A stretch of 46,298 nucleotides of DNA from Bacteroidales bacterium. Its GTDB lineage: Bacteria > Bacteroidota > Bacteroidia > Bacteroidales > UBA3824. Every line of letters starts with the position of its first letter. Within the stretch, counting starts at the first letter, position 1. The position numbers and the translations under genes were made by a program. Shown here in pieces: positions 5,995-10,767 of the stretch. Location: contig JAFXUC010000030.1 in NCBI GenBank assembly GCA_017535325.1, positions 1 through 46,298 of the forward strand, in the 5' to 3' direction. The notes under the pieces are model-generated. The model was not told the DNA's origin. It was given only the letters and a program-made list of their open reading frames with translations, and did no database searches.

Positions 5995-8136
5995 ATGAAA
6001 TCACGCTTTCATTTTACCGTAAAACTAAAACTAATAGTAGGATTCTCAGTTTTGGGAATACTGCTTTTCGTTATGTTCAAGACTTTGAGCGATGCGCAGG
6101 AAGGCAACGCCGACAAACTCTCTGAAAATATCGATTTGAATTATCCGTCAATGCTTTACACGGAAAAATTGAAGGATTTGATTCAAGAATCGCAGTTTTT
6201 GGTAACAAAATGGACACTCAAAGGCGACGTTCATGACACGAAACTTTTGAACGAAATAGAGTCGTGCCACGGCGAACTCTACGATTCTTTGCGCTCAAAA
6301 ATCGTAGGCTTTGTTGACAAAGACCGCTGGAGCGACAAAAACAAGGATTTGTATTTCAAACTCACGGCTACTGTTGACACGCTGTTTTCGCTTCAAGGCG
6401 ACGTGCTTGACAACCTGAGCAACGAAGAAAAATTTGCCGATGCCACAAATTATTCCTTCACGAAATTCAACCTGCTTGAAGGCGAACTCTCAAACTGTTA
6501 CAAAAGGTCTTTCAGAATGGCGACACAACTCTCAAACCAGTTTTTGAACGCTTCAAGAAACATCCTCGAAGAGACTGACTATCATTTGGACGAGGCGCAC
6601 TACACGTTGCAATACAGCGTGTTGGCGTTTTTCGGACTGATGATTATAATTGCCTTTATACTTGGACATTCGCTCGTAACGCCGGTCAACTACGTAAAAG
6701 ACAAAATCGTTGAAATGGCAAAAGGTTCGTTGCCGGAGGTTACGCCGCTGAAAAACAACGACGAAATCGGTGAAATGTCAGAGGCTCTTAAAACTCTGGT
6801 TTCCAATCTTAAAGAGACTTCACAGTTTGCAATCAACATCGGTGAGGGCGACTTTTCAACGGCTTTCAAACCGCAGAGCAAACAGGACGTGCTTGCAAAC
6901 TCACTGCTTGTCATGCGCGACAACCTCATCAAAGCCGACAAAGACGCAGAGCAGCGAAAGATAGAAAACTCGCAACGCAACTGGGCTTCACAAGGTTTGG
7001 CTGAGTTCAACGAAGTGTTAAGAAACGCCGGCGACGATATGCAGGTGCTTTCTAACCGCGTCATCGAAAAACTCGTCAGATTTCTTGACGCAAACATGGG
7101 CGGAATATACATTGTGGACGATTCAGACGAAAACGACATTCACCTCGAACTTACCGCTTTCTACGCCTACGACCGTCTGAAATACGTAAAACAAAGAATC
7201 GAAATCGGCGAAAACCTTGTAGGTCAGTGTTTCAGGGAAAACGAAACGGTTTACTTGACTGACTTGCCAAAAGGTTACGTACACATAAGCAGCGGTCTCG
7301 GCGAGGCTGACCCGACGTGCCTTGTTATCGTGCCGCTGAAAGTCAACGCCGAAACTTACGGTATTGTAGAACTTGCATCGTTCCAAGTAATTGAGAAATA
7401 CCAAGTTGAATTTATCGAGAAAATCGGTGAAACGATTGCGGCTTCTATCGCAAACGTTAAAATCAATATGAACACTCAGAAACTTCTTGAAGAGTCGCAC
7501 CAAAAATCAGAGCGTCTGGCTCAGCAGGAGGCGGAAGTGCATAAAAACATCGAAACCCTCAAATCTCAAATCGAAAGCCTTCAAGACCAGAACAAGCGCG
7601 AAACGATTAAGTATCAGAAACTTCACGACGATTTTGAGAATCAGGCGGAAACCAATTCGTCGGTTATTCAAAAACTCAACGAAAAGAACGAACAACTCAA
7701 AAACGATTATATGAAGCACCAGTTCATTTTGAACAATTCGGCGGGATATTACGAACTCGACCCGCAGGGTTTCTTCGTTTTGATGAACAACAGGCTTTTG
7801 AACTCTATTGACATGCCGATCAACGAAATAGAAAACCACGACATACGCTCGTTTATGACGGGTCAGGACGTGGAAAACTTCAATGCTATACTCGGCAAAC
7901 TCTCGGAAGGACTTATCCACACAGGCACTACAAAATACGTTTTTGACGGCAAAACAGTCTATTTGCACGAGACTTTCACACCGTTTAGAGACGAATACAA
8001 CGTCCTGATAAAAATCTGCGTAATCGCCCAAAACATCACGCAAAACGTCAACCGTACCGCCGAATTGGAACGTCAGGTCAACGACCTGAAAGCCGACAAC
8101 GAAATCTTAAACGCAAGAATTTTGGGATTGCAATAA
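5995..8136 (+). CDS. Membrane sensor with HAMP, GAF, coiled-coil and PAS domains but no output domain
   Basis: A 713-residue inner-membrane protein. TM1 (about 11-29) and TM2 (about 207-227) bracket a helical extracytoplasmic sensor of about 175 residues. HAMP follows (about 228-280, with the NNDEIGEMSEAL motif), then a second helical segment, a GAF domain (about 340-490), a long coiled coil (about 490-575) and a PAS domain (about 575-690). No histidine kinase, diguanylate cyclase, methyl-accepting or phosphatase domain is present, so it must pass its signal by protein contact. Two SpoIIE phosphatases lie downstream and are plausible partners. It converges on the small gene at 8137-8355; the hairpin at 8163-8199 could also end its transcript. 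Ligand unknown. Confidence 0.8.
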   Translation: MKSRFHFTVKLKLIVGFSVLGILLFVMFKTLSDAQEGNADKLSENIDLNYPSMLYTEKLKDLIQESQFLVTKWTLKGDVHDTKLLNEIESCHGELYDSLRSKIVGFVDKDRWSDKNKDLYFKLTATVDTLFSLQGDVLDNLSNEEKFADATNYSFTKFNLLEGELSNCYKRSFRMATQLSNQFLNASRNILEETDYHLDEAHYTLQYSVLAFFGLMIIIAFILGHSLVTPVNYVKDKIVEMAKGSLPEVTPLKNNDEIGEMSEALKTLVSNLKETSQFAINIGEGDFSTAFKPQSKQDVLANSLLVMRDNLIKADKDAEQRKIENSQRNWASQGLAEFNEVLRNAGDDMQVLSNRVIEKLVRFLDANMGGIYIVDDSDENDIHLELTAFYAYDRLKYVKQRIEIGENLVGQCFRENETVYLTDLPKGYVHISSGLGEADPTCLVIVPLKVNAETYGIVELASFQVIEKYQVEFIEKIGETIAASIANVKINMNTQKLLEESHQKSERLAQQEAEVHKNIETLKSQIESLQDQNKRETIKYQKLHDDFENQAETNSSVIQKLNEKNEQLKNDYMKHQFILNNSAGYYELDPQGFFVLMNNRLLNSIDMPINEIENHDIRSFMTGQDVENFNAILGKLSEGLIHTGTTKYVFDGKTVYLHETFTPFRDEYNVLIKICVIAQNITQNVNRTAELERQVNDLKADNEILNARILGLQ

Positions 8137-8355
8137 TTAATACTTCATTATAAGAAAAAAAGAAAGGAGGCTGTCATCATAATGTGAACAGCCTCCTTTT
8201 CTGTAACGGTTGCGGTCATAAACCTTTTTGGATTTTTCCACTCTAAGCGGCCGCGTAGAAATCAATTTTCCGTGCAGCGTAATTTCACGTTCCCTGTCCG
8301 CCTTCTTTACGGCGGTTAAATAGTCAGGGGCTTTTGCTTTTTTCTTCTTGCCCAT
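8137..8355 (-). CDS. Small basic protein with an in-ORF terminator; candidate tmRNA-regulated ribosome-rescue factor
   Basis: A 72-residue, strongly basic protein (MGKKKKAKAPDYL at the start; KSKKVYDRNRYRKGG at 41-55) with a hydrophobic tail (LLSFFLIM). I believe similar small proteins with SKKVYDR motifs exist in other Bacteroidales, but could not check. The striking feature is a 12-bp hairpin at 8163-8199 followed by a T-rich tract that lie inside the frame: the stem begins at codon 53, the T-tract covers codons 64-67 and the stop is only at 8137-8139. Terminated or cleaved mRNA would lack a stop codon, as in E. coli arfA and B. subtilis brfA, whose products release stalled ribosomes when tmRNA fails. 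The basic K-x-K-K-x-Y-x-R run recalls ArfA's KGKGSYxRK only loosely. Function is inference; reality of the gene is likely. Confidence 0.7.
   Translation of the reverse strand: MGKKKKAKAPDYLTAVKKADREREITLHGKLISTRPLRVEKSKKVYDRNRYRKGGCSHYDDSLLSFFLIMKY
8155..8199 (-). terminator. Strong intrinsic terminator inside the small basic ORF
   Basis: Perfect 12-bp stem AAAGGAGGCTGT (8163-8174) with ACAGCCTCCTTT (8188-8199). On the minus strand it is followed by TTTCTTTTTTTCTT, a strong U-tract ending before the stop codon. On the plus strand it is followed by TTTTCT only, so it is weaker for the sensor gene ending at 8136. Confidence 0.85.
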
Positions 8356-8400: not shown

Positions 8401-8423
8401 AGAGCCGCAAACATTGCGGCTCT
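8401..8423. repeat. REP-like palindrome, 10-bp stem with 3-nt loop
   Basis: AGAGCCGCAA (8401-8410), loop ACA, TTGCGGCTCT (8414-8423): a perfect GC-rich stem with no U-run on either side. It lies in the leader of the small basic gene and downstream of the SpoIIE gene. It resembles short palindromic intergenic repeats I recall from Bacteroidota genomes, but only one copy is in this window, so dispersal cannot be shown. Confidence 0.45.
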
Positions 8424-8461: not shown

Positions 8462-10681
8462 TTAGGATAATTTTACACCGATAACCGTTGTATCGTCCAT
8501 TTGAATATGGTCGCCACGCCACTCGATAAAAGTTTTGCGCAGATGTTTTTCCTGCCAGTCAAAAGGCTTGTCGATATTTTCGGTCAGGATTTCGCGGAAA
8601 CGCTTTGCCATAAGTTTTCTGCCTAACGGTCCGCCGAACTGGTCTTGATAACCGTCGGAATAAATGTAAAATGTCGTCGGAACGGTAATGTCAAACTCGT
8701 GGCGCGTAAAAATCCTCTGAGCCTCTTTCTGCATACCGCCGATGGAATTGTGGTCGCCGTTGATTTTTTCGATTTTGCCGTTCTGAATAAGAATCAAAGG
8801 ATTCTTTGCTCCGGCATACGAGAGTTTGTGCGCAGCCTTGTCAATAACGCAAACAGCCGCGTCCATGCCGTCGTTGTTTTCGGTGGTCTCCTGCTGCAAC
8901 ATCGTCCTGACAAGTTTGTGCAGTTCGTTAAGAATAAGGTCAGGCTCTGTAATCTTCTGAATGTTAATAATCTGATTCAACAAAGCATCGCCCAACATAC
9001 TCATAAACGCACCCGGAACACCGTGTCCCGTACAGTCGATAATCGAAACTATAAGTTTGCTTGCCTCGTCCTCGTCAACGTCCTTGCGGCGGAAAAGCGA
9101 CGGCGGTCTTTGGATTTTAACCTCAGAAAACCAATAAAAATCGCCGCTGACAGCCTCTCTCGGATAAAAATACACAAAACCGTCAACAAAATGCTTTTTA
9201 ATAAAATCCGGATTCGGCAAAGACGCCTTTTGAATACGCGCCGCATAATTGATTGAGGAAGTAATCGACTGATTGATTTCCTCAATTTCACGGTTGCGGA
9301 AACTGATTTCCTCGTTTGCCTTGTCAACGATTTCCTTTTGCCGGAGAATCTCGTCGTTCTGACGGTTGATCTCTTCGTTCTTGTTGGTAAGCAACGCGTT
9401 AACCTTCTTAATCTTGCGCGAATTGAAAAAGACGTACAACATAAACAAAACCACCAAAACGGCAATTATAATTATAACCGTGGTCATAATCCTGCTTTTT
9501 TGAAGCGTCTGCTCGTAAATGGCAAGTTCTTTTTCCTTTTCCTTAGTGGTTATCGAGACTTGAAGTTCAGAAAAACTTTCCGCTTTTTTAGCCTCGTGAA
9601 GCGAATCGTTAACAATAGTATAACGCGAAAGATAGTAATACGCGCTGTCAGTTTTTTTGCGCTTGTTAGCAATGTCGGCAAGCAACAATAAAGCGTCCGC
9701 CTTTTCTGCAAGCCACTGGTTGGCATCGGCAAGCGAAAGTGCCTCCATTGCCTTTTTCTTGGCATTTTCGGTGTCGCCTTTTATGAAACTGAGTCTGCCG
9801 AGACGGTTGTTGACAGCCGCAATATAAGTAATCGTTCCGAAAACCTGAAAAATATTGCCCGCACGGGTAAACATCATCACGGCTTCGTTGTAGTTTTCGT
9901 TTTTGACGTGCATTTCGCCCAAAATATAATACGTCTTTGCCATTTCGTAACGGTCGCCGGCAAGACGGTATTTTATAATGGCGTTGTTAAGACACTGGTC
10001 TTCTTTTTCGTACTCCTCGTTTTGGTCATGAACAGATGCCATATAACGGTAAGTTTCGGCTACAAGTGTCTGGTTTTTAATATTTTGACTGATAGTTAAA
10101 GCGTCGTTGAAAAAGGTCATCGCCTTGTCGTACTGATAACGGTTGAGTTCCACTTTTCCGATTCTGTCCATCGCGCTCGCGTGTCCGTCGTCGCAGGAAA
10201 ACACCTTGAAAATACTGTCGGCTTTTTCATAATTGCTCATCGCAACGTCCTCCACGTTTTGAATAAAATACGTGTCGCCGTATTTCAAAAGCGCGTATGC
10301 GGACTTTACGCTCTCGCCTTCGGTAAGATAAATGGAATACGCCTGAAAATAATGCTCCATTGCCAAATAAAACACTTTCTGCTCAAAGTATATATCTGCA
10401 AGGGCTTCCGACCAAAACGCTTGAAGGTTTTTGTCGTCATCTGTAATTGCGAGTTGCAACGCCTGACCCGCATATTCCAAAGCAAGGTAAGCGTCAGAAA
10501 TTTTGGTTAAATCGTACAGTTTTTTCAGGATTTCGAGATTTTCGCTGTTAGGTGCGCCCAACTCGTAGTTTTTCTGCAAACGTGCGTCCAAACTGTCAAG
10601 CATACCGTCCTTTGTGTCTGCGGCACAAAACAGGGAAATCAGACAAAAAACTGCCGTTAAAATATATTTTGTAAATTTCAT
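8462..10681 (-). CDS. TPR-TM-SpoIIE (PP2C-type) serine phosphatase
   Basis: A 739-residue protein. Signal sequence (MKFTKYILTAVFCLISLFC), an extracytoplasmic array of tetratricopeptide repeats (about 30-360), one TM helix (about 396-418), a signalling coiled coil (about 420-480) and a C-terminal SpoIIE phosphatase domain. Metal-binding motifs are present: SGDFYW, IIDCTGHGVPGAFMSM, DGMDAAVCVID, YSDGYQDQFGG and MDDTTVIGV. These enzymes dephosphorylate Ser/Thr on STAS-type antagonists in partner-switching pathways; no such partner is in the window. The start at 10681 is chosen because the upstream ATG at 10723 lies beyond the TATATTTG promoter at 10710-10717. It is a paralogue of the protein at 14082-16331. 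Confidence 0.88.
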   Translation of the reverse strand: MKFTKYILTAVFCLISLFCAADTKDGMLDSLDARLQKNYELGAPNSENLEILKKLYDLTKISDAYLALEYAGQALQLAITDDDKNLQAFWSEALADIYFEQKVFYLAMEHYFQAYSIYLTEGESVKSAYALLKYGDTYFIQNVEDVAMSNYEKADSIFKVFSCDDGHASAMDRIGKVELNRYQYDKAMTFFNDALTISQNIKNQTLVAETYRYMASVHDQNEEYEKEDQCLNNAIIKYRLAGDRYEMAKTYYILGEMHVKNENYNEAVMMFTRAGNIFQVFGTITYIAAVNNRLGRLSFIKGDTENAKKKAMEALSLADANQWLAEKADALLLLADIANKRKKTDSAYYYLSRYTIVNDSLHEAKKAESFSELQVSITTKEKEKELAIYEQTLQKSRIMTTVIIIIAVLVVLFMLYVFFNSRKIKKVNALLTNKNEEINRQNDEILRQKEIVDKANEEISFRNREIEEINQSITSSINYAARIQKASLPNPDFIKKHFVDGFVYFYPREAVSGDFYWFSEVKIQRPPSLFRRKDVDEDEASKLIVSIIDCTGHGVPGAFMSMLGDALLNQIINIQKITEPDLILNELHKLVRTMLQQETTENNDGMDAAVCVIDKAAHKLSYAGAKNPLILIQNGKIEKINGDHNSIGGMQKEAQRIFTRHEFDITVPTTFYIYSDGYQDQFGGPLGRKLMAKRFREILTENIDKPFDWQEKHLRKTFIEWRGDHIQMDDTTVIGVKLS

Positions 10682-10709
10682 TTTACTTAATAAGGATAAA
10701 ATACTCTGC

Positions 10710-10717
10710 CAAATATA
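10710..10717 (-). promoter_or_regulatory. -7 element TATATTTG for the first SpoIIE phosphatase gene
   Basis: Perfect TAnnTTTG match on the minus strand, with a start expected near 10703 and a leader of about 22 nt. It rules out the in-frame ATG at 10723 as the start. Confidence 0.55.
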
Positions 10718-10767
10718 CAACATATTTTATGCCTTAAAACCGTTTTCCGGCGTTTTTTTTTATAATT

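Follow-up and report, generated by a model that had tools for sequence, protein, structure and literature searches.

ArfA (YhdL, PF03889), the ribosome-rescue factor of Gammaproteobacteria and some Betaproteobacteria, is expressed from a gene in which an RNase III site and/or a terminator takes the stop codon off the mRNA, and its N-terminus is reported to be unstructured (excerpts of PMC6881298). In BrfA (YqkK) of Bacillus, confined to a subset of Bacillaceae according to the same excerpts, an intrinsic terminator lies within the ORF and about 62 of 71 residues are made; the protein consists of a charged N-terminal helix followed by a basic tail (excerpts of PMC6881298 and PMC8012679). The terminator, the dependence on smpB and the use of RF2 have been demonstrated for BrfA, and the same design is cited for ArfA (PMC6881298, in excerpt). 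The same paper reports that factors of this kind are poorly compatible across species. ArfT of Francisella, reported in F. tularensis and F. hispaniensis only, is short and basic towards its C-terminal end, and is reported to possess no terminator before its stop (PMC6299226). ArfB (YaeJ, NF006718) also serves as a backup rescue factor and has an RF-like catalytic domain of its own (model of 140 positions). In a survey of 15,259 genomes, the 1956 genomes of the FCB group included 1426 with arfB, 404 with rqcH and none with arfA (Callan et al. 2024, PMC11633108, Table 1), an indication that some Bacteroidota lack any known backup of trans-translation.

The gene described here is situated in a Bacteroidales window (the whole stretch of DNA analysed, 46,298 nucleotides) and encodes a small basic protein. 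Like E. coli K-12 ArfA it has 72 codons, and like ArfA it has a basic stretch after the middle, KSKKVYDRN/K here and KGKGSYMRK in ArfA, the KGKGS motif being absent. A hairpin with a T-tract, predicted to terminate transcription, takes the place of the RNase III site and/or terminator of ArfA. Unlike ArfA, it belongs to another phylum and has a predicted N-terminal helix. Membership in ArfA was rejected by sequence: PF03889 matched none of the 25 members of profile A1 at E up to 10 (most weak matches being removed by the HMMER filters), and hhalign of profile A2 against 14 enterobacterial ArfA sequences gave a probability of 4% with E 0.011, while BLASTP gave 15.8 bits. The likeness to BrfA extends to the terminator in the ORF, here predicted from sequence and fold, and to the charged helix, likewise predicted, followed by a basic tail. 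It was drawn from the description of BrfA. Searches of the PDB set with profiles A1 and A2 at E up to 10 returned no chain of that name; no rescue-factor chain of the PDB was matched by sequence or by fold. ArfT, likewise compared by description, resembles the short members of the family. With ArfB the family would share the backup role, but the 72-aa protein matches no RF-1 domain. Titles and abstract openings in the open-licence literature gave no description of such a rescue factor in Bacteroidota. The protein family is new, its proposed functional class and regulatory design are already known, and no such factor was found described in the phylum.

A small conserved gene under purifying selection

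The candidate rescue-factor ORF occupies 8137..8355 on the minus strand and runs over 72 codons from an ATG start to its only stop, TAA at 8139-8137. A single-sequence search of 5.8 billion proteins with the 72-aa protein gave 62 candidates, 60 relatives being at E <= 0.01. A profile built from 24 of these relatives together with the window's protein recognised at least 1585 relatives among the 8000 candidates scored. The family core, YxxAVKKADRExEIxxHGKxISTRPxRxxKSKKxYxR, is kept across alignments A1 and A2. In 21 loci from the window's genus and near it, compared over a 35-codon core each, pN/pS was 0.19 with a mean pN of 0.14 and a mean pS of 0.75, the latter near saturation, and pN was lower than pS in 209 of 210 pairs. 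The ORF is thus a real, conserved gene under purifying selection. No family of Pfam or NCBIfam matched the window's protein at E up to 1, and Pfam gave stray matches to one member each among the 25 family members, the best at E 0.027.

Two segments of the protein are conserved in both alignments. The charged segment YLTAVKKADREREITLH (codons 12-28; 8272..8322, minus strand) is predicted to form a helix; in the AlphaFold2 model of A1 the helix covers 12-28 with block pLDDT values of 84 and 88, in a model with a mean pLDDT of 66 and a pTM of 0.33. Foldseek comparison of this model with the PDB returned four matches at E 7.6-8.2, which were read as meaningless. The motif KSKKVYDR (codons 41-48; 8212..8235, minus strand) is the best conserved basic motif. 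Its residues K43, K44, Y46 and R48 are invariant in A1, and K44 and R48 in A2; it is proposed to act as a tail for the mRNA channel.

The family seems at home in Bacteroidales so far. In a Bacteroidota sample it was matched in 4 of 392 genomes, three being known Bacteroidales carriers and the fourth (G646) giving a weak match of 23 positions. No relative was found on viral contigs searched with A1 or in a plasmid collection searched by tblastn. One divergent relative (L081, from genome G255) has LKAARKKSREEEI and then KGDKKKHARGGKHKK at the position where others have KSKKxYxR, and may belong to a branch of its own or to another family. Genome G012, with 8% contamination, contains two different family genes (L009 on C274 and L017 on C285), which could be a genuine pair or the product of a mixed assembly.

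A hairpin and T-tract inside the reading frame

Codons 53-65 of the gene form a 12-bp hairpin (8163..8199, minus strand), in which 8199-8188 (AAAGGAGGCTGT) pairs with 8174-8163 (ACAGCCTCCTTT) over 12 pairs; it is recognised by sequence and fold, and by compensatory changes in relatives. It is followed by an 11-nt T-tract, CTTTTTTTCTT (8152..8162, minus strand), also present in relatives, which is the predicted 3' end of the transcript. Together they span codons 53-68 and lie entirely ahead of the only stop. Folding of the 66-nt stretch gave -21.1 kcal/mol, compared to -9.55 +/- 2.42 kcal/mol in 200 shuffles (z -4.8; none of the 200 as stable). The hairpin and T-tract are predicted from their sequence to end transcription and, as they precede the stop, the message is likely to be without a stop codon. 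The last codons and the stop (8137..8151, minus strand) are accordingly expected to be missing from the mRNA; the length, sequence and frame of this tail differ among close relatives.

These sequence facts on the gene and hairpin are solid, and the nonstop design of the gene is very likely. They agree with the first-pass annotation of this DNA in the position of the ORF and in its anatomy, a frame of 72 codons with hairpin and T-tract before the only stop. That annotation had also described a hydrophobic tail encoded past the hairpin, as in full-length ArfA, which proved wrong: the tail is a reading of the 3' arm and the T-tract, and the sequence after it is unconserved.

Position of the terminator across the family

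A terminator was defined as a single hairpin of 18-38 nt with at least 6 bp and a folding energy of -11 kcal/mol or lower, followed by at least 5 T in 8 positions, at least 2 of them in the first 4. The span scanned ran from 25 nt before the end of the core to 130 nt past the stop, and the hairpin was classed as before the stop if the stop followed the stem by 8 nt or more. Carriers were taken from 295 Bacteroidales genomes of at least 90% completeness, in which profiles A2 and A1 found the same 25; one locus (L059), outside the motif filter of the script, was added to the carrier set by hand. By this rule the hairpin lies before the stop in 16 of 25 carriers, the window gene included, after the stop in none, and nine have no terminator. 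The 16 represent 11 families (f1, f3, f5, f9, f19, f24, f49, f57, f58, f71 and f99) and their hairpins differ in sequence, so the in-frame hairpin ahead of the stop, which had been noted for the window gene, is kept in most surveyed members. In the nine others (f20 three times, f31, f71, f78, f99, f102 and f105) an ordinary stop follows the core at a distance of 27-39 nt. A homologue with the hairpin after the stop would speak against the design; the single case is one of these nine (L080), where the hairpin is short and under the threshold. In one locus of the wider set (L025) the stop falls within the T-tract and the case is ambiguous.

As control, ORFs of at least 150 aa from the window and from L024-L057 and L062-L081 were scanned by the same rule over a span that began 100 nt ahead of the stop and reached 130 nt beyond it. 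One of the 203 ORFs, in L038, was a family gene and was dropped. Among the remaining 202, 155 had no terminator, 44 had it after the stop, two before it, and in one the stop was in the tract. The difference between 16 to 0 in the family and 3 to 44 in the control is significant by Fisher's test at p 2.6e-12, with related sequences treated as independent. A terminator ahead of the stop is a trait of the family. Control by a nonstop message is not universal in it, since nine of the 25 members end at an ordinary stop and show no terminator under the rule. Several short ordinary-stop members (L042, L045, L049, L054, L063 and L069, from named Dysgonomonas and from family f20) are situated closely upstream of a co-directional ORF of about 315-330 codons in an operon-like arrangement.

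Proposed function and alternation with ArfB

The reading preferred here, to which we assign a probability of about three in four, is that the gene encodes a small basic backup rescue factor whose mRNA is likely nonstop, whose product would be tagged and destroyed by tmRNA-SmpB and would accumulate only when trans-translation fails. By analogy with BrfA, RNA polymerase would release the message around 8155, giving a product of about 66 residues. Ribosomes would stall at the stopless 3' end, and the product would be tagged with GENYDYALAA and degraded. When tmRNA is short, untagged protein would accumulate and enter the stalled ribosome. There the basic KSKKVYDR tail would occupy the empty mRNA channel, and a release factor would be recruited by the preceding conserved charged segment, for which a helix is predicted at 12-28. 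The protein has no RF-1 domain of its own. The host possesses the partners that such a course would involve, namely a tmRNA encoding the above tag, SmpB, and two RF-1-domain proteins with the motifs RISPFN (L022) and RVPQT (L023). From the SPF and PxT motifs, L022 is presumably RF2 and L023 RF1. Neither ArfB nor RqcH was found over the cut-off in the host.

Co-occurrence across genomes points in the same direction. Among the 295 Bacteroidales genomes, ArfB was over the NF006718 cut-off in 85 and the family was present in 25, and none contained both (hypergeometric P 1.3e-4). Counted by genus, ArfB was found in 56 and the family in 18, with one genus (g49) having both in different genomes (P 0.007). 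The exclusion of ArfB is therefore strong by genome and modest by genus. In f5, f19 and f49, genomes with ArfB and carriers of the family are found side by side. In the window's genus, the family was detected in 13 of the 18 genomes, among them all 8 good-quality ones, and ArfB over the cut-off in none. RqcH, searched by NFACT_N, was over the cut-off in 0 of 295 genomes, with two weak matches. Neither ArfB nor the family was found in 185 of 295 genomes, which shows that the need for one of them is not general. Genomes without ArfB, the family and RqcH over the cut-off either have trans-translation as their only path or possess further undescribed factors. A search for the codon pattern of KSKKxYxR in 21 non-carriers of carrier families and two carriers gave 32 places, of which 30 were read, and the core was recognised in the known gene of G165 alone; the pattern is not a sensitive test, as it missed the known gene of G242.

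Rescue is the most likely function, as suggested by the design of the gene and its alternation with ArfB. The reading draws on design, charge, size and co-occurrence, since the family has no sequence link to ArfA and no match among rescue factors of the PDB. The first-pass annotation had suggested a candidate rescue factor with a nonstop design, and this gained support from the hairpin before the stop in 16 of 25 members, from ArfB never occurring together with the family and from the absence of RqcH over the cut-off in the 295 genomes. Short basic proteins often bind rRNA, and the protein might have another job as a small ribosome- or RNA-binding protein, for example in hibernation or assembly, being controlled by tmRNA through its nonstop design and having no part in rescue. 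Such a role would suit the nine members without the nonstop design and the 185 genomes with neither the family nor ArfB, and rescue activity is itself deduced for the family. However, the alternation with ArfB fits a rescue factor and not an unrelated protein, and the genes of the same design met in the literature, arfA and brfA, are rescue factors (excerpts of PMC6881298). We consider this other role unlikely, though it is the best placed of the alternatives.

A broader form of the preferred reading, that the family is a missing RF-dependent rescue factor of Bacteroidota, so far of Bacteroidales, is probable with somewhat less assurance than the backup role itself. According to it, the factor has no detectable kinship to ArfA, reached the nonstop, tmRNA-policed design independently, swaps with ArfB from genome to genome and has short, always-on versions in Dysgonomonas and its kin. 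If true, the family fills part of the backup gap in Bacteroidales, where ArfB is found in 85 and RqcH over the cut-off in 0 of 295 genomes. It would also add to the rescue factors that are produced from nonstop messages, suggesting a recurring regulatory design for which the protein is invented afresh. The family offers a sequence handle on what Bacteroidales rely on when trans-translation fails.

Genomic neighbourhood

The gene is flanked by two genes which are not considered part of the system. Upstream lies a protein with TPR and SpoIIE phosphatase domains (8462..10723, minus strand), distant relatives of which (33-35% identity) occur within 3 kb in only three of 81 loci (L024, L028 and L029); in L029 the SpoIIE-domain relative is directly upstream of the family gene. 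On the other side, a convergent HAMP/GAF protein with a sub-threshold PAS match (5995..8136, plus strand) is found beside the gene in the closest relatives only (L002/L024 and L005). The possibility of an operon partner was examined by tblastn of five window neighbours in L001-L081 and rejected; HolA and the GAF gene were found in the closest relatives only. No partner is proposed, as the neighbours are restricted to the closest relatives and the SpoIIE-domain protein to the three loci named.

The stop of the convergent gene abuts that of the ORF (8136-8139). In E. coli, arfA and the convergent mscL share 4 bases at the 3' end of the latter, similar to the abutting stops in the window, and this resemblance is probably a coincidence. 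The arrangement also allows another explanation of the hairpin, namely that a terminator common to two convergent genes overlaps the 3' end of the ORF by chance and has no regulatory meaning. The end of the convergent gene, at 8136, is indeed one base away from the stop of the ORF, a weak T-tract follows the hairpin on the plus strand, and among 29 relatives whose hairpin precedes the stop, 15 face a convergent ORF as their next long one. In the other 14 (for example L003, L006, L028, L064, L067 and L070-L073) the next long ORF is co-directional, which makes an accidental shared terminator unlikely, and terminators stood before the stop in 16 of 16 family cases against 3 of 47 in control ORFs, one stop in the tract counted among the three. 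Chance overlap is thus quite improbable, clearly more so than another role of the protein. A palindrome, GAGCCGCAATGTTTGCGGCTC (8402-8422, minus strand), stands in the gap that separates the small gene from its SpoIIE-domain neighbour and has no T-tract after it.

Conservation of the hairpin as RNA

The terminator reading of the hairpin can be compared with conservation as peptide. Open frames were counted at 20 loci, all chosen for an open frame 0: the hairpin could also be read through without a stop in frame 1 at 16 of them and in frame 2 at four. An open frame at the hairpin is thus not in itself improbable, given frame 1 in 16 of 20, and the test is weak. Stem sequences differ by clade, with TCCGGA, GGCAGG and GAGAGGG types. 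Two relatives (L033 and L034) read through the hairpin in a different frame that likewise lacks a stop, giving SNTTMAVSFF and EIVQVMMTISFF compared to SNYDDSLFF. Past the hairpin, even near-identical genes such as the window's and P0001 encode protein ends of different length and sequence. That the longer read-through protein is the true product and the hairpin a conserved coding sequence rather than a terminator is scarcely credible, since the hairpin sequence, conserved as it is among close relatives, is read in different frames, is followed by sequence unrelated in length and letters, and has stems that differ between clades.

Covariation was analysed in seven stems of one type with equal length and register, L028-L033 of the same type being left out. 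Five of the 12 pairs never vary among the seven stems, and double changes occur at six. The number of pairs with double changes was matched in 1 of 500 shuffles. Further pair types numbered 7 against 8.5 in shuffles and were thus not raised, in the opposite direction to the other measures. In the seven stems 97.6% of cells pair, which 0 of 500 shuffles equalled, and sliding the stem partner lowered pairing to 40-65%. Judged from these sequences, the hairpin is conserved as RNA and not as peptide.
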